21,938 nt of DNA. It comes from a virus. This document shows positions 651-21,938 of this stretch, piece by piece (position 1 is the stretch's first letter; each line of letters opens with the position of its first letter). The position numbers and the translations under genes are program-made. The notes beneath the pieces are model-generated. The model saw only the letters and a list, made by a program, of their open reading frames with translations, was not told the origin of the DNA and did no database searches. Location: positions 1-21,938 of IMG/VR virus record IMGVR_UViG_3300025652_000639; one strand, 5' to 3'.

Positions 651-950
651 TTACCTGTTTAAATCCTTAATATCATAGCTGTGCTCTCTAACTTGATCTG
701 CTAGTTGTCTGTATAAATTTTCTGCCATCTGCCAAGTAGACTCTGCAGAAGTTAATCTTGTGTTTTGATCTATAATTTTTTCCTGAGCAGTAGTTAAATC
801 TCGTTGAAGATTTATTATTTGATTTTGATTGTCGTTGATTGTGTCTGTTAGATTAACAATATATCTAACACCAGTAAACGTTCCAACTAATACAGATGCT
901 ATGACTGGTACTAATATAAAATTTTTTTTAAATAGTTCTGCAATGTTCAT
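651..950 (-). CDS. Small membrane protein with N-terminal TM segment and coiled coil
   Basis: A 99-aa protein preceded by a strong GAGGAGA ribosome binding site. Residues about 11-32 (FILVPVIASVLVGTFTGVRY...) form one transmembrane segment. Residues about 34-95 are polar, rich in Asn, Gln, Asp and Leu, with heptad-like spacing, so a coiled-coil tail is likely. Its start overlaps the stop of the 215-aa gene by 4 bp. This single-TM-plus-coiled-coil layout is common among small phage membrane proteins such as holin accessories and i-spanins. The clear lysis genes are elsewhere (10285-10960), so a lysis role here is only one option. Confidence 0.7.
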   Translation of the reverse strand: MNIAELFKKNFILVPVIASVLVGTFTGVRYIVNLTDTINDNQNQIINLQRDLTTAQEKIIDQNTRLTSAESTWQMAENLYRQLADQVREHSYDIKDLNR

Positions 951-1594
951 TTTTTCTTCTCCTCAATTTCATAAAAGAACTTGTCCGTATCTTCTGTACG
1001 CCATGCTCTACTATTTTCTACATTCCATTCAGAAGTTTGCACTTTCCAATCAGGAATATCATCTTTTACGGTAAAAGATGGTAAGTCCCATATACATCTG
1101 TTGTTAGGTTGTGCTGCAAAATTACCATCATCTAAGGCAATTATGTGAGCGCACTTGTGTTCGTGCGGGATCTCTGAATGATCAGTATCTAGTATATTAC
1201 TTTCTGGATGAGCAAAGTCAACTGTAAATAAGTATTTACCTGGATGCCATTTTTTATCTTTACCAATATATTTACCGGCTTGTCCGTCTAAAATATCCCA
1301 ACGATGCACAGAAGGATAATAAGAAAAACAATTCCAGAGCTGTAGTTCATCAAGTCTTCTTCCGGGCACTCTACGTGGGTCAAATCCCTTTTGAATAAAC
1401 GCGCTAATTGGTAAGCGATAAAATATTGCACCGTTTTCCATAATAGCGTGAAATAGTATAGCACGACCTGTAAGAGAGCTAATACCAAAGATAATACAGT
1501 CAGCAACTTGTCCTTTATTTTTTTTGAGATCATATAAATATTCCTTTTTTATCTGTGCGTATGTTGGTGGTATGTTTGCATTTAAATAAGCCAT
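947..1594 (-). CDS. Conserved phage hypothetical protein downstream of polA
   Basis: A 215-aa soluble protein with no signal peptide or membrane segment. The middle contains dense aromatic and His/Asp residues (LDELQLWNCFSYYPSV, and TDHSEIPHEHKCAH near residues 138-151) that could bind metal. The C-terminus is Trp-rich (DWKVQTSEWNV), then Lys/Glu-rich. I recall similar proteins beside DNA polymerase genes in marine phage contigs, but I know no function. The gene starts 6 bp after the polymerase stop codon and has no clear Shine-Dalgarno sequence (upstream bases on the minus strand read AATGATAAACT), so translation may depend on re-initiation from polA. Confidence 0.75.
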   Translation of the reverse strand: MAYLNANIPPTYAQIKKEYLYDLKKNKGQVADCIIFGISSLTGRAILFHAIMENGAIFYRLPISAFIQKGFDPRRVPGRRLDELQLWNCFSYYPSVHRWDILDGQAGKYIGKDKKWHPGKYLFTVDFAHPESNILDTDHSEIPHEHKCAHIIALDDGNFAAQPNNRCIWDLPSFTVKDDIPDWKVQTSEWNVENSRAWRTEDTDKFFYEIEEKKK

Positions 1595-1600
1595 AGTTTA

Positions 1601-3574
1601 TCATTTTGTTTGTCCCCAATTAGGACCATATTCACAATCTACTTTGTTATTTATTTCTAACTTAATAGCTTGTTCCATTATATCTTGAACCATGATCCGT
1701 GTTTCTTGGTCCTTGATAGACACACAAAGTTCATCGTGTATCTGTATGTGAGGTACTATACCTTTTTCATATAAATCTACCATTGCTTTTTTTGTCATAT
1801 CTGCAGCGGACCCTTGCACTAATCTATTTAAAGCTTTGTATGTAAATGCTCTAGCATAGTGTCTTTTAAAATGTTCACACTCAGGGTCTGTCAATTTGTC
1901 ATACTTATCCATTTGTTCTAATTTATAACCGTCTTTAGCTTCTTCCATATTATTATAAAGTTTTACTTCAGTATAACGATTAATTTTAGGATCCCATTCT
2001 TTGTCCATACTTTCCCATTTTTCAAAACGACAAAACCTATCTCCTAAAGTAAATAGTAAACCTTCTTCATTAGCAAAACGTGATAAATCTTGAGACAGTT
2101 GTCTTACAAAAGGTACTTTCGCATGATAATTATCAAACAAAGTCTTAGCTTTTTTAGGATCTAAGTTTAATTCTTTCTGTAATTTTAATTTACCCATGCC
2201 ATAAAATAGTCCAAGATTAATTGTCTTAGCTTGCTTTCTTGGTATGTTGGCCATGTCTGCAACAATCTGATGAAAGTCAGCGTCCTCTTTGTCAAACTCT
2301 TCTTGAAGATCATTAGTGCCTGGCATACCTAGTTTGAGTGCGTAATGCACTACGATTCTTGGTTCTTGTTGTGAGTAGTCAAAACTATACCAATCACTTC
2401 CAGTTTCAGGAATAAATAATTCTCTCATCTTCTTACCAATATAACCTTTAGATGGAATTTGTTGTAAGTTTGGATTACTCATAGAAAATCTACCAGTTAC
2501 AGTCCCACCATGCTCTCCTTTTATTTGATTAATATCTGCGTGTATTCTTTCGTTATGAACAAATCCTAATAGACCCTCTACAAAAGTATTTTTAGCTTTG
2601 TCACATTCTCTTGCTTTAGCTACAAACCTTAGGAATCTATTTTTGTGTGTTCTTAAATAGTCACCTGGAAGCTGAGGCATTCCAGACTTTGGTGTTTTCT
2701 TGTAATCTTTTATGTCTTGATTTTCTAAAAGATTTTTTAATGATGATGCAGCCCAAATTTGTACATCAACACCTGTCCTAGCTTTAATTATTTTTATTAG
2801 ATTGTCTCTACGTTTTTCTAAACGCTTACCTAAATCTTTTGCTTTTTGGACATCAATCTTAACGCCTTTAAATTTCATGTCAACCAAACAAGGAAATAGT
2901 TTTGTTTCTAACTCAAATATTTTTCTAGAAGTTTTTTCTTCTTTGTTTCCATCGTCATCAACTTTAGTGTATAATACTTCATCCAATTTTTTATTAAATA
3001 AATTCCATAACTTTAAAGTTAAGTCTACGTCTTGCTTTGCATAATCTTTTACAATAGATGCAGGTAACTTGTGCATGTTAGTCATTGGATCTTTAATTGT
3101 CCCTTTAGACCAAGCAAGAGTTTTTTCTTGTAAATCATATTTATATTTTTTGTCTTGTAAATAGTCTTTAGACAAAGAGTCCAAAGAGTATTTAAATCTA
3201 TTCTCATCAATCACAGAAGCAGCAATCATAGTATCTAAAATTTTACCTTTCATCTTTTTACCTGTGACAGCTCGAATCCAACACACATCGTACATTGCAT
3301 TGTGAAATACTTTATTTATCTTTTCGTTTTGAAATATTTTTTCATTTAAAGATTCCCACATTTTTAATTTTTTATCTAATGACAAGTCTGTATCTGAGTG
3401 ACTAATTGGAAAGTATGCTGTATCTTTTCCTGTGGCAACAGCAATACCGCATATAAACCCATCGCCTCTTATAGCACCTAGTCCTTTTGTTTTTAAATTA
3501 GGATCATATGTTTCTATATCAACCGCAACAGTATCTATCCCATTTAAATCTAAATCTTCTGGTGTCTTACACAT
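1601..3574 (-). CDS. polA: DNA polymerase I (family A) with 3'-5' exonuclease
   Basis: A 657-aa replicative phage polymerase. The N-terminal DEDDy proofreading exonuclease is intact: Exo I DIE (D19, E21), Exo II HNAMYD (91-96), Exo III YAKQD (Y178, D182). The family A polymerase core follows: TGRFSMSNPNLQQIP (360-374), motif A DYSQQEPR (D399), motif B RKQAKTINLGLFYG (446-459) and motif C HDE (615-617). No 5'-3' nuclease domain is present, as usual for phage versions. The position equivalent to E. coli Phe762 is Leu454. Between motifs B and C there is an extended charged stretch (about 515-575). The gene overlaps the DUF3310 gene by 8 bp, and an AAAGGG ribosome binding site precedes its start. 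It presumably copies the phage genome with the upstream primase and helicase. Confidence 0.97.
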   Translation of the reverse strand: MCKTPEDLDLNGIDTVAVDIETYDPNLKTKGLGAIRGDGFICGIAVATGKDTAYFPISHSDTDLSLDKKLKMWESLNEKIFQNEKINKVFHNAMYDVCWIRAVTGKKMKGKILDTMIAASVIDENRFKYSLDSLSKDYLQDKKYKYDLQEKTLAWSKGTIKDPMTNMHKLPASIVKDYAKQDVDLTLKLWNLFNKKLDEVLYTKVDDDGNKEEKTSRKIFELETKLFPCLVDMKFKGVKIDVQKAKDLGKRLEKRRDNLIKIIKARTGVDVQIWAASSLKNLLENQDIKDYKKTPKSGMPQLPGDYLRTHKNRFLRFVAKARECDKAKNTFVEGLLGFVHNERIHADINQIKGEHGGTVTGRFSMSNPNLQQIPSKGYIGKKMRELFIPETGSDWYSFDYSQQEPRIVVHYALKLGMPGTNDLQEEFDKEDADFHQIVADMANIPRKQAKTINLGLFYGMGKLKLQKELNLDPKKAKTLFDNYHAKVPFVRQLSQDLSRFANEEGLLFTLGDRFCRFEKWESMDKEWDPKINRYTEVKLYNNMEEAKDGYKLEQMDKYDKLTDPECEHFKRHYARAFTYKALNRLVQGSAADMTKKAMVDLYEKGIVPHIQIHDELCVSIKDQETRIMVQDIMEQAIKLEINNKVDCEYGPNWGQTK

Positions 3575-3809
3575 CGTAATCCCTTTCTAATATCATTTCT
3601 AAATAATGTATTGCTTTCTTTATGTCTTCTTCTTTTCCCTTTGAAGAATGTCTGCATATATATTTTATAGCATTGCCTTCTGCAAAAAGCAATTTGTTTT
3701 CATTTATAAACTCTGCAGGCTGAATCTTCATCGACCGGTAGTGCTTCCCGCCTATCTGGTCTTCTAAAGAATTGTATGTTGTTCCTTTAAACATATTTTT
3801 ATCTGTCAT
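3567..3809 (-). CDS. DUF3310 family small protein
   Basis: An 80-aa protein matching the DUF3310 pattern: GGKHYRSMKIQPAEFINENK at residues 20-39, then GNAIKYICRHSSKGKEEDIK at 46-65, then KKAIHYLEMIL. The GNAIKYxxR...K...DIKKAxxYL core is diagnostic of the family. These proteins occur in many tailed phages, usually among nucleotide or DNA metabolism genes. Some databases label them nucleotide kinase, but no P-loop is present here, so that label is not supported. A strong TTAGGAG ribosome binding site precedes the start, and the gene overlaps the helicase gene by 11 bp and the polymerase gene by 8 bp, so all three are probably translationally coupled. Confidence 0.85.
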   Translation of the reverse strand: MTDKNMFKGTTYNSLEDQIGGKHYRSMKIQPAEFINENKLLFAEGNAIKYICRHSSKGKEEDIKKAIHYLEMILERDYDV

Positions 3810-5379
3810 GTTTTACTCCTAATGTGTATCTATCTTGTGATGCAATAGTCCAACAATCTATTCTACCTCTACTGTATGCTACATATTTTAAACGTAACTG
3901 AGTAAAATAATCTTCTGGTCTAGTACATGTTAAATCTACAATCACATTGTCATAAGTTAATCCTTTGACTGTGTGAATGTTTGCATACTCAACTCTTGCC
4001 TTTCCTTCTGTATCAACTCCTTCTCTTATTAAATTATTTATGTATTTAATCTTTTCAACGTCTGTTTTTGATTTTATTCTTGTGTAATAAAAGTCAGTAA
4101 AATCAAGGCTTTCTGGACGTAAAAACTTTTTTTCTATTAGTTCATGAATGGTATAATCTTTGTTAACCCAACCTTCAAAAGTTTCTTCTCCTTTGCCACG
4201 TACAATTACTTGTTGTCCCATAAAATTCCAAAACTCTTTTATTTGTTTCAATGGTAAAGCTGTTCCTTTAATAAATTCTGGCCATAGTTTATGACATCTT
4301 ATTTCTTTTTTTGAAACATAAGGATCACTACCTACATGACAAAATTCTATACCATGATATGTTAAAAAAGATCTTACCCATTTACCAGAAGGATTTCCCC
4401 TGTAAGTAAATAAAAAAGTTTCGTCTGTGTTTTTTATTTTATTTAACAAAGCTTCTCTTGCTGAACAGTCAGTATGTAAATCAGGTAGATAATAATCTTC
4501 TCCAATTATACCTTCTGCAGGTTTCCAAACTCTATCATAACCATAAAAATTCCAAATAGGTTCTATAATTTTTTTACATTTTTCATTAATTGTTTTTCCA
4601 CATCGTAAACCATTTTCTAATTGCTCTGCATCTTTTGATAGGTTGTGAAAATAATCTGGACTTGCACCTGCAAATTCAAAAATAGTTTGATCGGCATCTC
4701 CTACCATATAAAATTCTTTTGTGTTTGTAGACATTTTTTCAAGAGCTTTGATTTGTGGTACATTACTATCTTGCGCTTCATCTACTATTAGTACATCAAT
4801 ATCAGGAGCAACAGCCAGTTTATTAAACTCACTTATCATATCGTTGTAATCACACACTTGATTAATTCTTTTGTACTCATCGTAAACTTCTTTCATTTCA
4901 CTAATCATTCTAAAATTATTGTAAGGATAGTAGCTAGAACTAGTCTCTCTCAAAGCATACCAATGCTCTTTTATTGTTAAGCCTCTTCCAAATGCATCGT
5001 TTAAAAACCTAAAAAATTTATGTTTATCATTATCAAAATCTGATTGAGAAACTCTTTGTACTTTGAACCCAGAGTTTTCTCTACATAAGTTAAGATAATC
5101 TGCATAATCTAATACATCTTTCTTCAATAGTTTATTTCTACAAAAAGAATGTATTGTACAAATTCTATATTTAAAAAATTTTTTTCTTAAACCTCTTTCT
5201 TTAATCTCTTGCAAATCTAATATAGCTTCTTTTACTTCTGCAGCAGCTACCTTTGTATGAGATAAAATTACTATTTTTTCTGGAGAATATGTTTTTAATA
5301 ATTCTTTATATTTTTTTGTTAAGAATAAATGTGTCTTACCTGTACCTGGAGGACCAGCTACAAACTTAGGCTTGTTCAT
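3799..5379 (-). CDS. UvrD/Rep-type superfamily 1 DNA helicase
   Basis: A 526-aa ATP-dependent DNA helicase, shorter than bacterial UvrD (about 720 aa). Motifs appear in order: Walker A GPPGTGKT (9-16), motif Ia ILSHTKVAAAE (38-48), IHSFC (76-80), Walker B VDEAQD (199-204), motif III GDADQTIFEFAGA (228-239), motif V IHTVKGLTYDNVIVD (468-482) and motif VI YVAYSRGR (499-506). The ATP-binding and coupling residues all look intact. The start overlaps the end of the primase gene by 14 bp, with AGGAAAGG upstream as ribosome binding site. No DnaB-type helicase is visible in the window, so this protein, or the SF2 helicase at 8615, may unwind DNA for the polymerase. A repair role is the main alternative. 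Confidence 0.93.
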   Translation of the reverse strand: MNKPKFVAGPPGTGKTHLFLTKKYKELLKTYSPEKIVILSHTKVAAAEVKEAILDLQEIKERGLRKKFFKYRICTIHSFCRNKLLKKDVLDYADYLNLCRENSGFKVQRVSQSDFDNDKHKFFRFLNDAFGRGLTIKEHWYALRETSSSYYPYNNFRMISEMKEVYDEYKRINQVCDYNDMISEFNKLAVAPDIDVLIVDEAQDSNVPQIKALEKMSTNTKEFYMVGDADQTIFEFAGASPDYFHNLSKDAEQLENGLRCGKTINEKCKKIIEPIWNFYGYDRVWKPAEGIIGEDYYLPDLHTDCSAREALLNKIKNTDETFLFTYRGNPSGKWVRSFLTYHGIEFCHVGSDPYVSKKEIRCHKLWPEFIKGTALPLKQIKEFWNFMGQQVIVRGKGEETFEGWVNKDYTIHELIEKKFLRPESLDFTDFYYTRIKSKTDVEKIKYINNLIREGVDTEGKARVEYANIHTVKGLTYDNVIVDLTCTRPEDYFTQLRLKYVAYSRGRIDCWTIASQDRYTLGVKHDR

Positions 5380-6817
5380 ACGTTATTACCCTTTCCTCTA
5401 TTTCTTGAGCTTCTCCTTCAATAATTAAGTTATCTTTATTTATGTGATAGTTATCTATTTTATATGAAGAACAAGACCTGTCTTTATACTTACCTCTGTA
5501 TCTTTTAGCTTTTAGAATACTCCTGCATTTTAAAACAAGATCTACTCTTGCTAAACTTATTCTTTTGTCTGCTAAAAATTCGTCAAATTTATTTAAATTA
5601 AATTCTAAACTGTTATTTTTAATATTGAAGTAAGGCATGTTAAAGTCTGCCAATTCTTTTTTATCACTGTAAGCTTTATATTTATCTATAAAAGATTCAA
5701 ACCATCCTATAAATCTAACGTCTTCACTTGACTCTGGATCATAATCTTGTGACTTATTTCTTGTATCAAATTTTGCTATCATCATTGTTTCAAAATCTGT
5801 TTCCTTCATGTAAGGTAGAAAAACAGCAGCTTGTTTCATTACTGCTGCATAAAAATAACTTTTTTTCATTAGCTGTAGTCCTTCTAAAGTTATGTCTTTC
5901 TCAACTTTCTTTCCATCTTCCATAGCATAAATTTTTATAAAATACCTATCACTACCATACTCAGTTATTTCACCTATTTGTTCTTGTAATACTTCTTTAT
6001 TATTTGTAACACCGACCCAACTAAATAACTTTGAAATGTGTTTAGAATCAACGTTTAATATTTCTGCTAATTTAGGAATGCCATAAATTTTTTCTGCTTT
6101 TTTACCTGTTGTACCTTTTTGTTTTCTTTTTTCTGCCTCAGTATCATTTGCTTCAATAGCAATATTATATACAAAATCATCTATCTGTTCTGCTGACCAG
6201 TCTGTATTTTTTATTAGAGTCCCTGCAATAGCTGTGCAGTATACATCTCTATGACCAGAGCCTGCGTACAAGATTGTTAATGCAGTAGATAAAGCTATCT
6301 TACCTACATCAATTTTTATATTACCATTATACTCATAAATTTCTTCGTAAGTTTCCCATTCTACTTTTTCTCCTGTGTTGTCATAAGGAGATTCTGGAAC
6401 TATAGTATATCTTTCTTTTCCATGTCTTAATTCACAAAGAGTTGCACCATGGTGAAATTTTTCAAAATAACTTTTAAAAACATCTGGCAAAGTATACTGT
6501 ATAAAATCACAAGACCCTGTCCAAAGATAATGACTTTTAGGATTGTTTCTTCTACCATAAGTAGCTCCACATGATTTTAAATAATGATTTATAAATCTTC
6601 CAACAACATAATTGTCTACATCTAAATCTATGTGTTTATCTAATCTTAATGCTATCTGTGCTTTTGCGTGATAATTTTTCCAATCTTCTTTCGTTAAACT
6701 AAAATCTTCTTTCTTCCAACTGACCCTGGCTTTCTTTTGATCAGTGGGTATTATGACATGGCCTAGATTTAGCCAATCTTCATACGTAACAGGATTTTTA
6801 TTTATCTTTTCATTCAT
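5366..6817 (-). CDS. AEP-type DNA primase / primase-polymerase
   Basis: A 483-aa protein whose N-terminal half carries archaeo-eukaryotic primase motifs of the bifunctional primase-polymerase kind: motif I IDLDVDN (D64, D66), motif II SHYLW (S95, H96), and motif III CELRHGKERYTIVPESPYDN (128-147; catalytic E129), followed by a TGEKVEWE strand. Residues about 185-260 (SGHRDVYCTAIAGTLIK..., then the AEKIYGIPKLAEIL region) resemble a primase C-terminal (PriCT-like) helical domain. The last 200 residues show no Walker A box, so there is no fused helicase, and I do not recognise that part. The gene has no Shine-Dalgarno sequence; a 9-bp hairpin ends 7 bases before its ATG. Its place ahead of helicase and polymerase supports a role in replication initiation. 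Confidence 0.88.
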   Translation of the reverse strand: MNEKINKNPVTYEDWLNLGHVIIPTDQKKARVSWKKEDFSLTKEDWKNYHAKAQIALRLDKHIDLDVDNYVVGRFINHYLKSCGATYGRRNNPKSHYLWTGSCDFIQYTLPDVFKSYFEKFHHGATLCELRHGKERYTIVPESPYDNTGEKVEWETYEEIYEYNGNIKIDVGKIALSTALTILYAGSGHRDVYCTAIAGTLIKNTDWSAEQIDDFVYNIAIEANDTEAEKRKQKGTTGKKAEKIYGIPKLAEILNVDSKHISKLFSWVGVTNNKEVLQEQIGEITEYGSDRYFIKIYAMEDGKKVEKDITLEGLQLMKKSYFYAAVMKQAAVFLPYMKETDFETMMIAKFDTRNKSQDYDPESSEDVRFIGWFESFIDKYKAYSDKKELADFNMPYFNIKNNSLEFNLNKFDEFLADKRISLARVDLVLKCRSILKAKRYRGKYKDRSCSSYKIDNYHINKDNLIIEGEAQEIEERVITYEQA

Positions 6818-6868: not shown

Positions 6869-7621
6869 CTATAAATTTAAAGATTTTTTAGTTTGCTCTT
6901 GGACTTCAGGTTTAGCTTCAACTTCACCTTTACCTACAGATTCTGCAAAAGATTTAGCCATATCATATATAGCTTTTTCTTCTACAGGACCTACTTTAGA
7001 TACATCCCAACCAAACCATGTTCCTTTGTCATTAGACATCTGAACGGTTGATAGGTTATAAATGTGGCTGTAAGTTGGCGGAGTAAATAAACCGTTTTTC
7101 CCCTGCATTTTAAGACCCATCATCATTGAGTTCCATTTTCTACTAACTTTAAGTTGAGTAGACTTCATAGAAATCAAAGCTGTTTGCGGGCTTTTACCTA
7201 CGATCAATACAAAATGACTTGCAGTGTTATCAAGATAATTACCATTTGGTAATCTATCTTTGTAGTCTTTACCTCTTGTGGTTTGACTTACGATATCACT
7301 GTCAGCATCATGAATTGCAACTGGTGCACCTGTACTGGTACCTCTATCTTGCCATTCTATGTATTGTCTTTTGTAATGACAAGGTACAACAGAAATTTTG
7401 TCATACAGTTCATTAGTTACAGTATTGATTATTTTGCCTGGTTCTGCGCCATCGACATATTTACCATCTCTTTTGTTTACCTCTGGAGATAGTTGGCCCA
7501 AAATTTTTAAGAAAGGCAACGCAAGATCTTCTTGCGATATATTTTGAGCGCCTTGTTGTGCATCAGCTTCCATATCAAATGTTGCTAGTGCTCCGTTCTT
7601 TTTTTCTGTTACTTGGTTCAT
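6869..7621 (-). CDS. Conserved replication-region protein, candidate ssDNA-binding type
   Basis: A 250-aa soluble protein with an AAGGA ribosome binding site. After a polar N-terminus comes a conserved-looking block, EDLALPFLKILGQLSPEVNK (31-50), then a beta-rich centre (KISVVPCHYKRQYIEWQ; HFVLIVGKSPQTALISMKST; KVSRKWNSMMMGLK) rich in aromatic and basic residues, and a Lys/Glu-rich tail. I recall similar proteins in phage replication modules. A ssDNA-binding role fits the composition and the place just upstream of primase, helicase and polymerase, but no named motif proves it. A recombination mediator or another DNA-processing accessory is the alternative. Confidence 0.65.
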   Translation of the reverse strand: MNQVTEKKNGALATFDMEADAQQGAQNISQEDLALPFLKILGQLSPEVNKRDGKYVDGAEPGKIINTVTNELYDKISVVPCHYKRQYIEWQDRGTSTGAPVAIHDADSDIVSQTTRGKDYKDRLPNGNYLDNTASHFVLIVGKSPQTALISMKSTQLKVSRKWNSMMMGLKMQGKNGLFTPPTYSHIYNLSTVQMSNDKGTWFGWDVSKVGPVEEKAIYDMAKSFAESVGKGEVEAKPEVQEQTKKSLNL

Positions 7622-7623
7622 GT

Positions 7624-8175
7624 TTACTTGTTCCTTTTTATTGTTGTTTTATTCTCTGAGAATACCCCAAAGATTTCCGTTGGCATTTCTTTTCCTGCCT
7701 CAATACGCTCACGGACTAGCGCTTTCAAAGTCATGGGCTCAACCTTCATCTTTTGTGTTGGTTGAAACCCTTGACCTTTCGCAAGTTCAGCATATGTTGC
7801 TGCCTTGTTATCCTCGTTACGACCAAATGATACCAAGATCTCGTTCTTAATAATATCACCTAGTCCATTGTCCCGAAGCCAGTTAAACGCCGATTCTTTA
7901 TTTGCTTCTGTAATAGTAGCACGATACGACGTTGAAACTTTAAGATGTGATCCATCTTGTAGTTTTAATTCTGCTAAACCCATTTCGGACATCATGGTAG
8001 GTATAACCTCTCCTGATATACGTTGGTATTCTTTTTTTAAATCTTTTAAACTATTTTCATTTGCTTCTATTTTTGTATACAAACCTTCTAAAGCTTGCAC
8101 TTGATCTGCAAGAGACTGAATATTTTCAGTTCTACTCATTGCATCTTGTTGATCCTTTTCAAAATCAATTGTCAT
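7624..8175 (-). CDS. Conserved coiled-coil phage protein of the early operon
   Basis: A 183-aa soluble protein preceded by a strong GAGGAG ribosome binding site. Residues about 18-50 form a probable coiled coil (QSLADQVQALEGLYTKIEAN onward). Next come VIPTMMSEMGLAELKLQDGS, a basic beta segment, NWLRDNGLGDIIKNEILVSF (98-117), and a C-terminal helix, MTLKALVRERIEAGKEMPTE. The layout recalls a family widely seen next to the 250-aa protein's relatives in phages, but I cannot name a function. Its GC looks higher than the flanking genes. The stop is 2 bp before the next start, and its start overlaps the end of the upstream gene by 11 bp. It may act with the 250-aa protein. Confidence 0.7.
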   Translation of the reverse strand: MTIDFEKDQQDAMSRTENIQSLADQVQALEGLYTKIEANENSLKDLKKEYQRISGEVIPTMMSEMGLAELKLQDGSHLKVSTSYRATITEANKESAFNWLRDNGLGDIIKNEILVSFGRNEDNKAATYAELAKGQGFQPTQKMKVEPMTLKALVRERIEAGKEMPTEIFGVFSENKTTIKRNK

Positions 8176-8560
8176 CTATTTCTCCTCTTTCATATAAGTT
8201 TATTTCTATTGGATAGTATTTTCTTTCTTGTTTGTCCCACTTTAGGACTTTGTATTTACCGTTTGTAATATCAGATACAATAGAACATGCAACACCTATG
8301 ATTGCAGGATCTCCTGTTAATAATAAATAATCTCCTATCTTAAAATCTTTTAAACCTTTTCTTAATTTAAAAATTAAAGGACCAGGAGAGAAAATCATTT
8401 GAGAAAATTCTGGTAATAAAAATTTAAACTGTCCATAGTTAGACGCACCTAGAATATTAATTTTAGGATTGCCTGCCTGTGTACCAGGAATTTCTTGAAT
8501 AACATACACAACTGGTGTGTGTGTTTTTATTATATTTCCATACTCTATACTTTCTGACAT
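8165..8560 (-). CDS. Conserved phage protein, first gene of the leftward replication operon
   Basis: A 131-aa protein starting at ATG 8560-8558 (MSESIEYGNI). An ATG 18 bases upstream is in frame but lies between the -35 and -10 boxes of the predicted leftward promoter, so it should not be transcribed from there. The expected transcription start is 1-3 bases before 8560, so the mRNA may be leaderless, and no Shine-Dalgarno sequence is present. The protein is beta-rich with conserved-looking Gly/Pro segments (YVIQEIPGTQAGNPKINILG; FSPGPLIFKLRKGLKDFKIG; YLLLTGDPAIIGVACS). No catalytic motif or membrane segment is seen. I recall similar marine phage proteins, with no known function. As the first operon gene it is a candidate early regulator or replication accessory. 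Confidence 0.72.
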   Translation of the reverse strand: MSESIEYGNIIKTHTPVVYVIQEIPGTQAGNPKINILGASNYGQFKFLLPEFSQMIFSPGPLIFKLRKGLKDFKIGDYLLLTGDPAIIGVACSIVSDITNGKYKVLKWDKQERKYYPIEINLYERGEIDDN

Positions 8561-8588
8561 TGACAAACTATATAACATTGATTATATA
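8560..8588 (+). promoter_or_regulatory. Sigma70-like promoter for the rightward SF2 helicase unit
   Basis: Consensus TTGACA (8560-8565), a 17-bp spacer, then TATATA (8583-8588). Predicted transcription start is near 8595, giving a leader of about 20 bases with a purine-rich GAAAGAAGA before the ATG at 8615. It overlaps the leftward promoter, so one RNA polymerase should exclude the other. Confidence 0.65.
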
Positions 8589-8614: not shown

Positions 8615-10045
8615 ATGAATTATAAATTTAAAACTAAGCCGTATGCGCATCAAATAACTGCGTTGGAAAAATCGTGGAATAAAGAAACCTATGCATATTT
8701 TATGGAAATGGGTACAGGTAAAACAAAAGTATTAATAGACAACGTCGCTATGCTTTACGATAAAGGTAAAATAGATGGTGCCTTAATTATTGCTCCTAAA
8801 GGAGTTGTTAAAACTTGGTTTGAACAAGAACTACCTACACATCTTCCAGATCACATAGAGAATGTGTCCGTATTATGGCAACCAAATATTACAAAAGGAC
8901 AACAAGAAAAATTAGAATCTTTATTTGAAATAGAAACTGCATTACACATTTTAGTTATGAATGTTGAAGCATTAAGTACAGACAAAGGCGTTAAGTTTGC
9001 TCGTAAATTTATTAACTCTCATAAAACTATGATGGCCATTGATGAGTCCACTACAATTAAAACACCAACTGCAAGAAGAACTAAAAATATTATTAGTCTG
9101 GGGTTAAACGCTAAGTATAAAAGAATTATGACAGGTTCTCCTATTACTAAAAACCCACTTGATTTATACACTCAGTGTGAGTTCCTTGATCCGTGGTTAT
9201 TGGACTTTGCTTCTTACTATGCGTTTCGTAATCGTTATGCAGAAATGAAAACAATGCATCTTCGTGGAAGATCAATACAAGTTGTAGATGGGTTTCAAAA
9301 TTTAGGTGAGTTATCAGATAAAGTAAAAGACTTTTCTTATAGAGTATTAAAAGAAGACTGCTTGGACCTACCACCAAAGAACTTTATTAAAAGACACATT
9401 TCATTAACAGCAGATCAACAAAAAGTATACAAACAAATGAAAGAAGAAGCTCTTGCTATATTAAATGGTAAAGTTACCACTACTATGACTGTGTTAACTC
9501 AATTAATGAGACTCCATCAAATAACTTGTGGCTATGTAACAGCTGATGATGGATCTACACAAGAAGTAGAAAGCAATAGAATGACTGAGTTAATGTCTGT
9601 TCTTGAAGAAACTGAAGGTAAAGCTATTATATGGGCTAACTATCAATTTAGTGTAGGAGATATTATAAAAAACATTACTAAAAAATTTGGTAAAGATTCT
9701 TATGTTCACTACTATGGTTTAACACCACAAGAAATTAGACAAGAAAACATTGTTAAATTTCAAACAGACCCTAACTGTAGATTTATTATTGGAACGCCTG
9801 CTACGGGCGGTTATGGGATAACTTTAACAGCTGCAAACACCGTAATTTACTATTCTAACGGATATGACTTAGAAAAACGTTTACAGTCAGAAGACAGAGC
9901 ACATCGTATAGGACAAAAGAAAAACGTAACTTATATTGATATTATTGCAGAAGATACTATTGATGAAAAAATTGTAGAAGCTTTAAGAAATAAAATTGAT
10001 ATAGCTAGTCAAGTTATGGGAGAGGAATTAAAAGAATGGATATAA
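8615..10045 (+). CDS. SNF2-like superfamily 2 helicase/ATPase
   Basis: A 476-aa two-RecA-domain ATPase. Motifs: PYAHQ (9-13), Walker A MGTGKT (32-37), motif Ia IIAPKGVVKTW (58-68), Walker B DEST (143-146), motif III TGSP (173-176), motif V GTPATGGYGITLTAANTVI (393-411), and motif VI EDRAHRIGQ (426-434), which is typical of the SNF2 branch. There are no accessory chromatin or nuclease domains, and the length is close to the bare helicase core, as in other phage members. It is the first of two rightward genes, opposite to all others in the window, and has its own promoter. It may remodel protein-DNA complexes or aid replication or recombination; the exact substrate cannot be read from the sequence. 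Confidence 0.93.
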   Translation: MNYKFKTKPYAHQITALEKSWNKETYAYFMEMGTGKTKVLIDNVAMLYDKGKIDGALIIAPKGVVKTWFEQELPTHLPDHIENVSVLWQPNITKGQQEKLESLFEIETALHILVMNVEALSTDKGVKFARKFINSHKTMMAIDESTTIKTPTARRTKNIISLGLNAKYKRIMTGSPITKNPLDLYTQCEFLDPWLLDFASYYAFRNRYAEMKTMHLRGRSIQVVDGFQNLGELSDKVKDFSYRVLKEDCLDLPPKNFIKRHISLTADQQKVYKQMKEEALAILNGKVTTTMTVLTQLMRLHQITCGYVTADDGSTQEVESNRMTELMSVLEETEGKAIIWANYQFSVGDIIKNITKKFGKDSYVHYYGLTPQEIRQENIVKFQTDPNCRFIIGTPATGGYGITLTAANTVIYYSNGYDLEKRLQSEDRAHRIGQKKNVTYIDIIAEDTIDEKIVEALRNKIDIASQVMGEELKEWI

Positions 10046-19037: not shown

Positions 19038-19218
19038 TATTTACTCCCGGACTTGCTGTTGTAAACCATGTAAATCTTTGTTGTTCGTCTCTTAAATCTT
19101 GTTGAAATGTAGAGTTTAGTTTTTCAATCAATCCATCCAAATCTCTAATCAAAGAATCAGCATCATTCTGTTTATATTCTTTTCCAGGTCTTGTAAATAC
19201 TACTGTTACTTTAGCCAT
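19030..19218 (-). CDS. Small conserved helical protein of the virion module
   Basis: A 62-aa protein, with GGAAGAAG upstream as ribosome binding site and a one-base overlap with the hub-like gene. After a short strand (KVTVVFTRPGKEYKQ) it has one or two amphipathic helices (LIRDLDGLIEKLNSTFQQDL, then RDEQQRFTWF), so an oligomerising coiled coil is plausible. I recall near relatives beside hub-like genes in marine phage contigs, without known function. A head-tail joining or tail assembly part is inferred only from neighbours. Confidence 0.65.
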   Translation of the reverse strand: MAKVTVVFTRPGKEYKQNDADSLIRDLDGLIEKLNSTFQQDLRDEQQRFTWFTTASPGVNNG

Positions 19219-21398
19219 TATCTTCTTCCATCTGGTTGTGTGTCTAATCTAAATGTACCTAACTTCCAACTTTGAGAAACTCCTGTGTTAGCTACTTTTA
19301 AAGATATAGCTCTTGCTCTTGCACGTGTATCTATTTTATCAGTTGAAGATGTAATAGTAAACGGACCTAAAGGTGAGCTTGCTTGAGAACCATTAGGATA
19401 GTTTCTAAGTTGTAGTGTTACTTGTGTACTACCTGTTTGAGATAAAAAGTCAGGTATAAATCTTCTTATCTTCATAATAAATTCACCATCTCCTTTAAAT
19501 GTTGCAACACCTGTTTGTTGTCCGGTAGACGTACTACGAGCTTGTGTAATATCAAAATCTCCTGATTCAATATTAGAAGCAATTGCTGTAGTTGTTCCAT
19601 TAGCTATTTGATCAGTTCCTTTTTCATGTTCAAAATATATTGTACTTCCTTCAGTATTACCTACTACATCAAAAGAAGAGTCAACACCTGCACTGTATTC
19701 TGTTGCGTGTGGTAAACCAAACACAGCTGAATCTTGCCATGTTCCACGAGCTAAGGTTCCTGTTGTCCAAACAGGTCTCTGTGGTGATGAGTCCATATAA
19801 TTATAAGTTACAGATCTATTAACAACAGTAGAACTTTCTGTGCAATAGAACCAAGTAATTTCTCCAAACAAATTATTTAATCCAACATTAATTAATTGGT
19901 TAGCTGTTGTATTTAAATCGTTATAAACAAAGTCTTCTACTAAACATGTCATAGTTTCCAAACTACCTGAGTATCTAAAGAAACCATTTTCTGATAACCA
20001 GTATGCAGCACCATCAACTTCTAACGCAGCATTCTGTCCAATTAAACCACAGTTAGTTCCAACTTGTTGAAAACCAAAAGTAAGAGGTTGACCAATAAAT
20101 CTCATAGTAAACAAAGATGTATCTGTCCAAACATAAATCGCATCCCTACCTCTAACTGCACCTACAATTTTTGATCCGTCTGCAAGTCTTTGAAAACCAG
20201 CAGTGTTAATTGCTGTTGGTTGATATGTATTAATATCTTCTTGGTCTGAAAATCTAATAAACATTTCATCTTGTGTAGCAGGTGTACCTATTGTTTCTTC
20301 TGTACCAAAAAATACTAAGTGACGATCGGGAGTTGATACTAACATATCACGTGATGCTGTTGGTGCACCACTAATAATAGTTGCTCTGTTATTGGTTGCG
20401 TTTGTTGCATTAGAGTCCCATTCAAAAACTTGTGCATTATGTATTAGTGCAATTACTTTATCTCCAAAGTTATCTATACTCCATAAACCAGGATCTATAA
20501 CTAAGTCACCTGAAGCTGCTTCGCCCCATGCAACATAGTCAGAAGTGTTAGTTACTGTTGCTCCATTTAAATGAGAAGCTGCTGTTGTGTTTCTAACTTC
20601 TCTTGTTACACCTGTTAAAGTGTTTGTTGATATTCCTGTGTAAGAAATTTCTTCTGTGCCTATTTGAATAAAGTTGGTACCAGAACTTGGAAACTGTGAA
20701 ACGTCTGACAATGTAATACCTGTAGTAGTAGATGAGTTAATACCACCATTTAAAGTTGTTGTTGCTTCACCTGATACTGTTCCACTCCATTGACCTAACC
20801 CATAACCAAAACCAGGTAATTGAGTTGCTGGTCCAACAGGGTAATAATGTCTTACTCTAATACCACCTGATGTTGTTGCACCCGATCCTGTTTCATTTGA
20901 GGGCATTGTTATTGTTATAGTTGTGCTAGATGGTACACTTGTTACCATAAATTTTTTATCATCAAAATCTGATGCTGAGTAATTAGAATTAGTTATTGCT
21001 GTAAAATTATCTAACAGAACAATATTATTTTCTTGAATATTGTGATCGCCACTAAATGTTATTGTAACTATTGGAGAACCATTAGTTGTACTAAAAGCAC
21101 TTGTTAATGTTGTAGTGCTTTTGATAGGATGTATGTCATAAAAAATACCTCCTGAGTATGCATATAAAATATGACTAGTACCTATGATTGCAAACTTGTT
21201 ACCGGACTTGTTAACTAAATGATGTAAAGCTCTTGCGGCTCCTGTAAGTTTTGACTCACCTAACTGTTGCCAACCGCCTATTTTTTCTGGTGTACCATAT
21301 CTAAAACGTACATTATCTCCATCAACCCATTGTCCTTCAGCTGTAGTTTCTGTAACTTGTTTGTTAAACCCTGGTTGAAATCCTATTTTTTGTAGCAT
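19218..21398 (-). CDS. Hub/packaged-DNA-stabilisation-like tail protein
   Basis: A 726-aa, beta-rich, acidic virion protein. The opening block (GFQPGFNKQVTETTAEGQWV, then DGDNVRFRYGTPEKIGGWQQ, residues 6-45) resembles P22 gp10-type tail hub/packaged-DNA stabilisation proteins. The rest shows repeated beta segments consistent with a propeller-like body (KFAIIGTSHILYAYSGGIFY; DRHLVFFGTEE; DAIYVWTDTSLFTMRFIG; AAYWLSENGFFRYSG). Two Thr/Ser-rich beta segments, at about 94-185 and 215-285, look like inserted domains; the second carries IQIGTEEISYTG...LTGVTREVRNTTAASH. A TGGAGC ribosome binding site precedes the start. It would close the portal channel or join tail parts. Exact family assignment needs structure comparison. 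Confidence 0.7.
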   Translation of the reverse strand: MLQKIGFQPGFNKQVTETTAEGQWVDGDNVRFRYGTPEKIGGWQQLGESKLTGAARALHHLVNKSGNKFAIIGTSHILYAYSGGIFYDIHPIKSTTTLTSAFSTTNGSPIVTITFSGDHNIQENNIVLLDNFTAITNSNYSASDFDDKKFMVTSVPSSTTITITMPSNETGSGATTSGGIRVRHYYPVGPATQLPGFGYGLGQWSGTVSGEATTTLNGGINSSTTTGITLSDVSQFPSSGTNFIQIGTEEISYTGISTNTLTGVTREVRNTTAASHLNGATVTNTSDYVAWGEAASGDLVIDPGLWSIDNFGDKVIALIHNAQVFEWDSNATNATNNRATIISGAPTASRDMLVSTPDRHLVFFGTEETIGTPATQDEMFIRFSDQEDINTYQPTAINTAGFQRLADGSKIVGAVRGRDAIYVWTDTSLFTMRFIGQPLTFGFQQVGTNCGLIGQNAALEVDGAAYWLSENGFFRYSGSLETMTCLVEDFVYNDLNTTANQLINVGLNNLFGEITWFYCTESSTVVNRSVTYNYMDSSPQRPVWTTGTLARGTWQDSAVFGLPHATEYSAGVDSSFDVVGNTEGSTIYFEHEKGTDQIANGTTTAIASNIESGDFDITQARSTSTGQQTGVATFKGDGEFIMKIRRFIPDFLSQTGSTQVTLQLRNYPNGSQASSPLGPFTITSSTDKIDTRARARAISLKVANTGVSQSWKLGTFRLDTQPDGRR

Positions 21399-21415: not shown

Positions 21416-21938
21416 CTATTTTACACCTGATGGTAGTCCTAGCTTAGCTCTTCCATCAAATCTATTTTTATCAGCAAATGGGCCATTCACATGATTATAA
21501 TGTAGAAATACTTGACCGCAAATGTTCCCGTCAAAAGGCTCTCGCCAATGTTCAAGTTCGCAACCACTATATACTAACATATCGCCTACTTCAAGCAAGA
21601 CTTTCGTACCTGCTGGAGCGTTAGGTTTATGTATATTTTTGTACTCATCAATAACATTATTAGATCCTGTTCCATCTATAAATATAGGCCAAGGATCACC
21701 ACCTAGATTAACTGTTGTAGATATTTCACAACTAGGTCTGTCTTTATGTCTTCTAAGTTCATCACCTTTTTTATAGGCTCTTGCATAAGAGTATGTTGGT
21801 ATTAAATCTAAACCTGTATGTTTTTTCATTACTGGTAACATTTTAACCATAAGAGTTTCCATAGCAAAATCAGCATAACATGAGTAGGTATTAGGTATTT
21901 GTTGATCGGTCCATGTTCCAAGGATCGGGGACTGTGCG
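21416..21938 (-). CDS. 2-oxoglutarate/Fe(II)-dependent oxygenase, 5' end outside window
   Basis: The frame is open to the right edge, so the gene is cut at its 5' end. An ATG at 21862 is internal: the 25 codons before it continue a family-like sequence (GTWTDQQIPNTYSCYADFAM). The visible part has the iron-binding triad HxD...H: RRHKDR, then CELEHWREPF 65 residues later, and a closing GQVFLHYN. This is the prolyl-4-hydroxylase-like double-stranded beta-helix pattern. Such enzymes hydroxylate proteins or small molecules using 2-oxoglutarate and O2. The gene lies 17 bp upstream of the hub-like gene in the virion operon, so a virion or host protein may be the substrate; that is inference. Confidence 0.88.
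   Translation of the reverse strand, partial: AQSPILGTWTDQQIPNTYSCYADFAMETLMVKMLPVMKKHTGLDLIPTYSYARAYKKGDELRRHKDRPSCEISTTVNLGGDPWPIFIDGTGSNNVIDEYKNIHKPNAPAGTKVLLEVGDMLVYSGCELEHWREPFDGNICGQVFLHYNHVNGPFADKNRFDGRAKLGLPSGVK

Follow-up and report, generated by a model that had tools for sequence, protein, structure and literature searches.

At the position equivalent to Phe762 of Escherichia coli Pol I, phage family A DNA polymerases carry different residues, and this position serves as a life-style marker in viral metagenomes: Leu762 is reported mostly from temperate phages, Tyr762 and most Phe762 from lytic ones (PMC6302109, PMC9069017, PMC13228545; this and all other literature given by PMC number is cited from excerpts). 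The evidence for the "slower copying" attributed to Leu comes from single mutants of Taq and T7. The 21,938-base virus record analyzed here over its whole length, referred to as the window, encodes a polymerase of this Leu762 type. The first-pass annotation, which was right that a link between residue 762 and life style exists in the literature, noted the association of Leu with slow copying or temperate habits. What, then, does the Leu residue signify at this locus? The reading preferred here, with a probability of roughly 0.7, is that the enzyme serves as the replicative polymerase in an HTVC023P-type pelagiphage that is probably virulent, and that its Leu is an inherited residue of little life-style meaning and one half of a Leu762/Pro711 pair.

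The Polymerase Gene and Its Motifs

The gene is a 657-aa open frame on the minus strand (window 1601-3574), identified as polA by its Pfam matches (PF00476, E 1.2e-60, residues 244-655; PF01612, E 8.8e-18, residues 12-198) and by its fold. The protein comprises a 3'-5' exonuclease domain (PF01612; 2981-3541, minus strand), with the residues DIE at 19-21, and a polymerase domain; a 5'-3' exonuclease domain was not found in it. The catalytic motifs A, B, and C of family A are present, with D399, E404, R446, K450, Y458, and H613-D614. Motif A, DYSQQEPR, spans residues 399-406 (2357-2380, minus strand), where Gln403 corresponds to E. coli position 709, Glu404 to the steric gate 710 and Pro405 (2360-2362) to 711. 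Motif B, the O helix, was initially read as RKQAKTINLGLFYG at 2198-2239, and translation of the minus strand returns exactly this sequence for residues 446-459.

The placement of Leu454 (codon CTT, 2213-2215, minus strand) opposite Phe762 was likewise confirmed. A MAFFT alignment with E. coli PolA (RRSAKAINFGLIYG) and T7 gp5 puts Leu454 on Phe762/Tyr526, and HMMER aligned it to the Phe of Bst and also, using a profile of nine relatives, to the Phe of Klenow Pol I. In the predicted model (mean pLDDT 92.8), Leu454 lies within helix 446-457, and over its full length the chain can be aligned to Klenow, Bst, Taq, and M. smegmatis Pol1 (Z about 31-35). The Klenow, Bst, and Taq enzymes share fold and catalytic motifs with the window PolA but have Phe at 762; E. 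coli Pol I further carries Leu711 and Ile709, whereas the window PolA has Pro711 and Gln709. Leu occupies position 762 in 25 of 26 relatives from a first viral scan, the 26th (L020) ending before the motif. Given the strength of the PF00476 match and these 25 relatives, Leu454 is not a chance reading. It has been inherited, does not vary among the relatives examined, and is ordinary for a large group of phage polymerases.

Assignment of the Window and Its Gene Content

PolA matched 1,472 phage records, every one at less than 60% identity, with HTVC027P (48%; 48.3% over 99% of the query), 023Pt_psg01 (46%), HTVC023P (40%), and DSL-LC04 (39%) at the top. Phages are included in the HTVC023P type if their PolA is at least 45% similar to that of a cultured member (PMC9599517), and the 48.3% identity to HTVC027P lies above this threshold. 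The same four records are the best for the gp10-like stabilization/virion protein (19218-21398, minus strand). Since complete HTVC023P-type genomes measure about 58.8 kb on average (PMC9599517), the window represents about one third of a genome; GroES co-chaperonin and terminase are not among the genes of this 21.9-kb fragment.

The core helicases of HTVC023P-type pelagiphages are present. A UvrD/REP-type superfamily I helicase (3799-5379, minus strand; PF00580, E 1.6e-30; 26% identity to the HTVC027P helicase) is encoded upstream of polA, and a gene for a DUF3310 protein (3567-3809, minus strand; PF11753) lies between the two, an arrangement also seen in 023Pt_psg01. An SNF2-type superfamily II helicase (8615-10045, plus strand; PF00176, E 2e-23) is encoded on the other strand from polA, which is also the case in HTVC023P and HTVC027P. 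HTVC023P-type pelagiphages share with the window the UvrD-type and SNF2-type helicases, a peptidase M15, and the gp10-like protein, and the PolA enzymes of HTVC027P, HTVC023P, and 023Pt_psg01 likewise combine Leu762 with a QQEPR motif A. The window PolA diverges from theirs in overall sequence, with only 40-48% identity. Judged from its gene content and similarity, the window is assigned to an HTVC023P-type pelagiphage, related to SAR11-infecting viruses.

The window also displays the layout of the Leu762 Group II virioplankton polymerases described by Nasko et al. (2018; PMC6302109), in which a UvrD-like neighbor accompanies polA in 68% and an SNF2-like neighbor in 45% of cases; this assignment is based on the residue and on both kinds of neighboring helicase gene. 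No ribonucleotide reductase was detected among the proteins scanned in this third of the genome.

Several other genes deserve mention. A 483-aa protein (5366-6817, minus strand) occupies the place of the HTVC027P primase, to which it has no significant BLASTP similarity; it has no convincing Pfam or PHROG match, and by eye it displays features reminiscent of archaeo-eukaryotic primase-polymerases. Three adjoining genes (6869-8578, minus strand) match the gp34, gp33, and gp32 families of phage Pam3, for which PHROGs gives unknown function. The frame at 21416-21937 (minus strand), which runs past the window end, is labeled ferrochelatase in PHROGs and has no Pfam match. This label is doubtful, as labels for a 2OG-Fe(II) oxygenase and a ferrochelatase stand next to each other near the gp10-like gene of HTVC023P. 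A Pfam search at a loose threshold gave nothing convincing for the window proteins of unknown function.

The gene that follows polA (947-1594, minus strand) is much better conserved than polA: the homologs on contig L129 are 92% and 45% identical, respectively. It is labeled "ferredoxin" in PHROGs and "PurM" in HTVC027P and has no Pfam match. Within it lies an 81-aa frame (1288-1533, minus strand), shifted by +1 from the host gene, that contains hydrophobic stretches and starts with ATG downstream of an AAGGA-like site. The frame is open in 85 of 92 homologs of the host gene, as against 1.66 of 92 expected from synonymous codon shuffling, and 83 of the 92 have the ATG start. In the 85 homologs with at least 55% identity, no stop occurs in 6,906 codons, compared to 300 in 7,062 codons of the same frame just downstream. 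After clustering at 80% identity, it is open in 12 of 15 clusters and closed in three more distant ones (at most 42% identity); it is also open, yet unannotated, in HTVC027P and HTVC023P. From its sequence the frame looks like an overprinted membrane-protein gene, and dual coding may account for some of the host gene's conservation.

Three contigs among the best 80 matches carry labels of cellular origin. Two are labeled Pelagibacteraceae (L134 and L136; 59.5 and 62.1 kb; polA 45 and 44% identical), and their length comes close to that of a complete phage genome, which would be more in keeping with infected cells than with prophages. The third (L132), with a PolA 82% identical to that of the window, was binned as a Thermoplasmata archaeon and is probably a mis-binned phage contig.

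Residue 762 and Phage Life Style

No tyrosine integrase was found within the 21.9 kb of the window, about one third of a genome, in agreement with the initial annotation, which had seen no integrase; for serine recombinases, Pfam scans covered the larger proteins. The complete records of HTVC027P, HTVC023P, and 023Pt_psg01 contain neither a tyrosine integrase nor a serine recombinase. HTVC027P, the closest cultured relative and itself a Leu762 phage, is described as obligately lytic (PMC12753301), and temperate infection was excluded for the phages probed in another study, HTVC027P included (PMC11066056). The equation of Leu with a temperate habit is not supported for this phage.

A broader survey employed the profiles PF00589 (tyrosine integrase) and PF00239 (serine recombinase) with a cut-off. 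Among 21 named phage records, none exceeded the cut-off for PF00589 and one did so for PF00239, namely Mycobacterium phage Violet, which has Phe762. An integrase of either kind is found in 0 of 9 named Leu762 phages compared to 1 of 12 named Phe762 phages, and Violet demonstrates that Phe762 does occur together with an integrase. A single weak PF00589 fragment with stops in Enterococcus SAP6 (Leu762) and a weak PF00589 match on contig L218, both under the cut-off, were counted as absent. Streptococcus MS1 (Leu762) and two Streptomyces phages (Phe762) were searched for the tyrosine type, which was absent from all three. A close relative with Phe or Tyr at 762 was not found, and the Phe762 records used for comparison are from more distant phages.

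In addition, 97 contigs of at least 30 kb were typed at position 762 and searched for tyrosine integrases; their completeness was not established, and each single absence is therefore weak. Tyrosine integrases were detected in 0 of 13 Leu762 contigs of the window's own class (termed QEP for its motif A residues), in 2 of 10 of a second Leu762 class with Ile or Val at position 709 (termed I/VEP), in 1 of 2 Leu762 contigs without Pro711, in 0 of 1 with Met762, in 4 of 61 with Phe762, and in 1 of 10 with an untypable polymerase. Two shorter contigs from the Leu762 scan, L083 (26.6 kb) and L023 (24.3 kb), fall outside these counts and showed no tyrosine integrase. Serine recombinases were found in 0 of 26 Leu/Met762 contigs and 4 of 24 Phe762 contigs. 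Searches for both kinds covered 50 contigs, and an integrase of either kind is found in 3 of 26 with Leu/Met762 versus 6 of 24 with Phe762, a small difference. Leu762 is not accompanied by an excess of integrases, and the clear absence concerns the window's own class.

These data bear on the view, taken from the viral-ecology literature, that Leu762 marks phages that are temperate and whose polymerase copies slowly and accurately. In print, Leu762 is linked both to temperate phages and to non-ring helicases (PMC6302109, PMC9069017), and when the Leu762 contigs are taken as a whole, their tyrosine integrase rate (3 of 25), which stems from the I/VEP contigs and one contig without Pro711, is not below that of the Phe762 contigs. 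Against this stand the lack of either kind of integrase in the long contigs of the window's class and in the named Leu762 phages, the missing Leu excess once both kinds are counted, and the lytic growth of HTVC027P. Moreover, an exception to the life-style rule has already been published with Bradyrhizobium elkanii phages, which are lytic despite their Leu762 (PMC12656738). A temperate phage is therefore a very improbable explanation of Leu454. Instead, the phage of the window is probably virulent, although the remainder of its genome could hold an integrase, and Leu762 fails as a life-style marker for the HTVC023P-type group.

Alternatively, Leu762 might be a genuine slow-copying adaptation of a lytic phage to a slow-growing host, such as SAR11, in which the speed of the polymerase would not be the limiting factor. 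The idea has been put forward for slow-growing Bradyrhizobium (PMC12656738), and the latent period of HTVC027P is about 18 h, compared to about 15 h for the temperate HTVC022P on the same host (PMC12753301). However, Leu762 polymerases are also present in the Pseudomonas phage PaMx11, the Bordetella phage CN2, and the Streptococcus phage MS1. Pseudomonas, Bordetella, and Streptococcus are not slow growers, and we regard an adaptation to slow hosts as unlikely.

Pairing of Leu762 With Pro711

A feature that accompanies Leu762 was found in motif A. In a first alignment, Pro711 was present in all Leu762 phage enzymes but two, and the Phe762 enzymes had Tyr, Leu, or Met at this position. Some of the retrieval patterns included residues of motif A or B. 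Viral contigs were therefore sampled three more times, with patterns on the distant element QG(S/T)(A/S)AD, which includes no residue of either motif. From 359 of 360 stretches examined, 332 PolA-like frames were obtained, and 314 were typed after exclusion of 18 that were cut or failed a filter for catalytic residues. In these neutral samples, Pro711 occurs in 222 of 226 Leu762 enzymes, in the single Met762 enzyme, and in 0 of 87 Phe/Tyr762 enzymes, among the matches listed and with near-copies included. The other scans are likewise samples of the matches listed or of the best 80.

To reduce redundancy, all sequences collected were dereplicated to 178 rows with pairwise identities of at most 62% over shared polymerase columns. 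Pro711 is found in 46 of 51 Leu762 rows, the one Met762 row, and 0 of 126 Phe/Tyr762 rows among the matches listed; this set includes one scan with a motif A pattern that reached position 709 and two scans with motif A/B patterns, the latter also forming part of a 486-row table and standing outside the neutral counts. When the residues at positions 580-928 were tested for association with a non-aromatic residue 762, Pro711 ranked first (phi 0.93), followed by Gln709 (0.72). Leu762 and Pro711 form a near-exclusive pair.

Two other residues were considered as general partners of Leu762 and rejected: Gln709 and Gln678 each occur in 0 of 8 enzymes of the I/VEP class. Gln709 is an additional characteristic of the class to which the window PolA belongs. 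Cys823 and Thr856 are also absent from all eight, while Asn634 (5 of 8) and Ile848 (7 of 8) occur as in the window's class.

Six exceptions, which indicate that Pro711 is not strictly needed, carry Leu762 without Pro711. They comprise the named phages Enterococcus SAP6 (QELR) and Vibrio K294 (FEVR) as well as 4 of the 226 Leu762 rows of the neutral samples, again among the matches listed (QEI, QEV, QEL, and QEH). K294 combines Leu762 with Phe766, as does DpoZ of vibriophage phiVC8 (PDB 7PBK), an enzyme with L455 and F459 in motif B that prefers 2-aminoadenine (PMC8599892). DpoZ resembles the window PolA as a native family A enzyme with Leu at 762 (L455, four residues ahead of F459) and, judged from the predicted model, is close to it in fold. 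Unlike the window PolA, DpoZ has Val at 711 (motif A DMASFEVR, by alignment) and Phe at 766.

Descent and Coupling

Trees were built from alignments stripped of the columns for motifs A and B. In a tree of 77 rows, the QEP-Leu class forms a single group (support 83/70), and the I/VEP-Leu class requires at least three changes on well-supported branches. This tree contains 19 of 38 QEP-Leu, 48 of 121 Phe (three Phe rows were skipped by hand), and 2 of 5 Tyr rows and leaves out the Met row and the five dereplicated rows with Leu but not Pro; owing to this sampling and the omitted exceptions, it serves only to count changes. Two constrained topologies were rejected by AU tests, with groups that were named after the tree had been seen and with long branches in play: a single clade of all 27 chosen Leu762/Pro711 rows (p about 2e-74) and a single clade of QEP and the five-row I/VEP core (p about 5e-6).

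With the exceptions added (85 rows), which makes for a fairer test, the non-aromatic residue 762 needs at least four changes on supported branches. Over four supported independent contrasts, Pro711 moved in the same direction in 2.9 on average, in the opposite direction in 0.0, and remained unmoved in 1.1, with a bootstrap that was not fully settled. A first tree of all 178 rows yielded only two supported contrasts, 1.7 of them in the same direction. The direction is as expected; with only four supported contrasts, significance is out of reach. A further comparison is provided by the Streptomyces phages BRock and Alone3, which are among the best tblastn matches of an I/VEP-core enzyme (37-38%) and have Leu711 with Phe762, whereas the I/VEP core has Pro711 with Leu762. 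The paired Leu762/Pro711 state arose or disappeared on more than one occasion, gains and losses being indistinguishable.

Leu762 and Pro711 could still occur together merely by old shared inheritance, without functional coupling. The poorly resolved deep branches would allow for this, the sign test on the four contrasts is not significant, and the six exceptions show that the two residues can be separated. Conversely, the pairing recurs in the I/VEP class without Gln709, Gln678, Cys823, and Thr856, even though Asn634 and Ile848 are shared; BRock and Alone3, relatives of the I/VEP class, differ from it at both residues; and Pro711 was never seen with an aromatic residue 762 in the dereplicated rows among the matches listed. 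Shared inheritance as the sole cause appears rather unlikely. The further reading that Leu762 and Pro711 are a co-adapted active-site pair, gained or lost several times, in which Pro711 restores a useful copying speed, is given slightly less than even odds.

A Possible Compensatory Role of Pro711

Residue 526 of T7 is equivalent to E. coli 762 and Taq 667 (PMC4215692, a review). In the model of the window PolA, Pro405 occupies the third position of helix 403-414, immediately past the strand (394-400) that bears Asp399. The offset between the E. coli and Taq numbering is constant over motif A, so that E. coli 711 corresponds to Taq 616. In the Taq literature, a review places residue 616 behind residue 667, and an L616A mutant is on record.

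A 2026 preprint on T7 reports that Y526L cuts polymerase activity by 97% and that the phage cycle is not completed (PMC13228545). Its authors conclude that Leu enzymes found in nature require compensatory changes and call their identification a key direction. As residue 711 lies behind 762 in Taq, Pro711 is a concrete candidate for such a change, and to take it as one is the simplest interpretation. In the proposed mechanism, Leu762 would stand in for an aromatic side chain whose ring usually supports the sugar of the nucleotide to be added. Pro711, as the neighbor of the steric gate Glu710 and placed behind residue 762, might reshape the pocket such that the smaller Leu could still hold the nucleotide sugar against Glu710. 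From this analysis we infer that Pro711 compensates for Leu762 and that the window PolA would be fully active. No published statement on a 711-762 link in phage enzymes was found, which does not prove the link unpublished; PMC9069017, PMC13228545, and PMC6302109 contain no mention of "motif A," "711," or "proline."

Implications for Marine Leu762 Polymerases

For the group studied here, position 762 misleads as a life-style marker, since Leu762 is present in an abundant group of marine phages whose best-studied member is lytic. Leu762 itself is a known trait of this group, and the link to Pro711 is the part of the finding that is worth testing. The Leu762-Pro711 pairing offers a named, single-residue hypothesis for the question raised on natural Leu enzymes (PMC13228545). 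If it is true, the conclusions drawn from single Phe/Tyr-to-Leu mutants, namely that such polymerases are slow, more accurate, and typical of temperate phages, would not be transferable to the abundant marine Leu762 enzymes.
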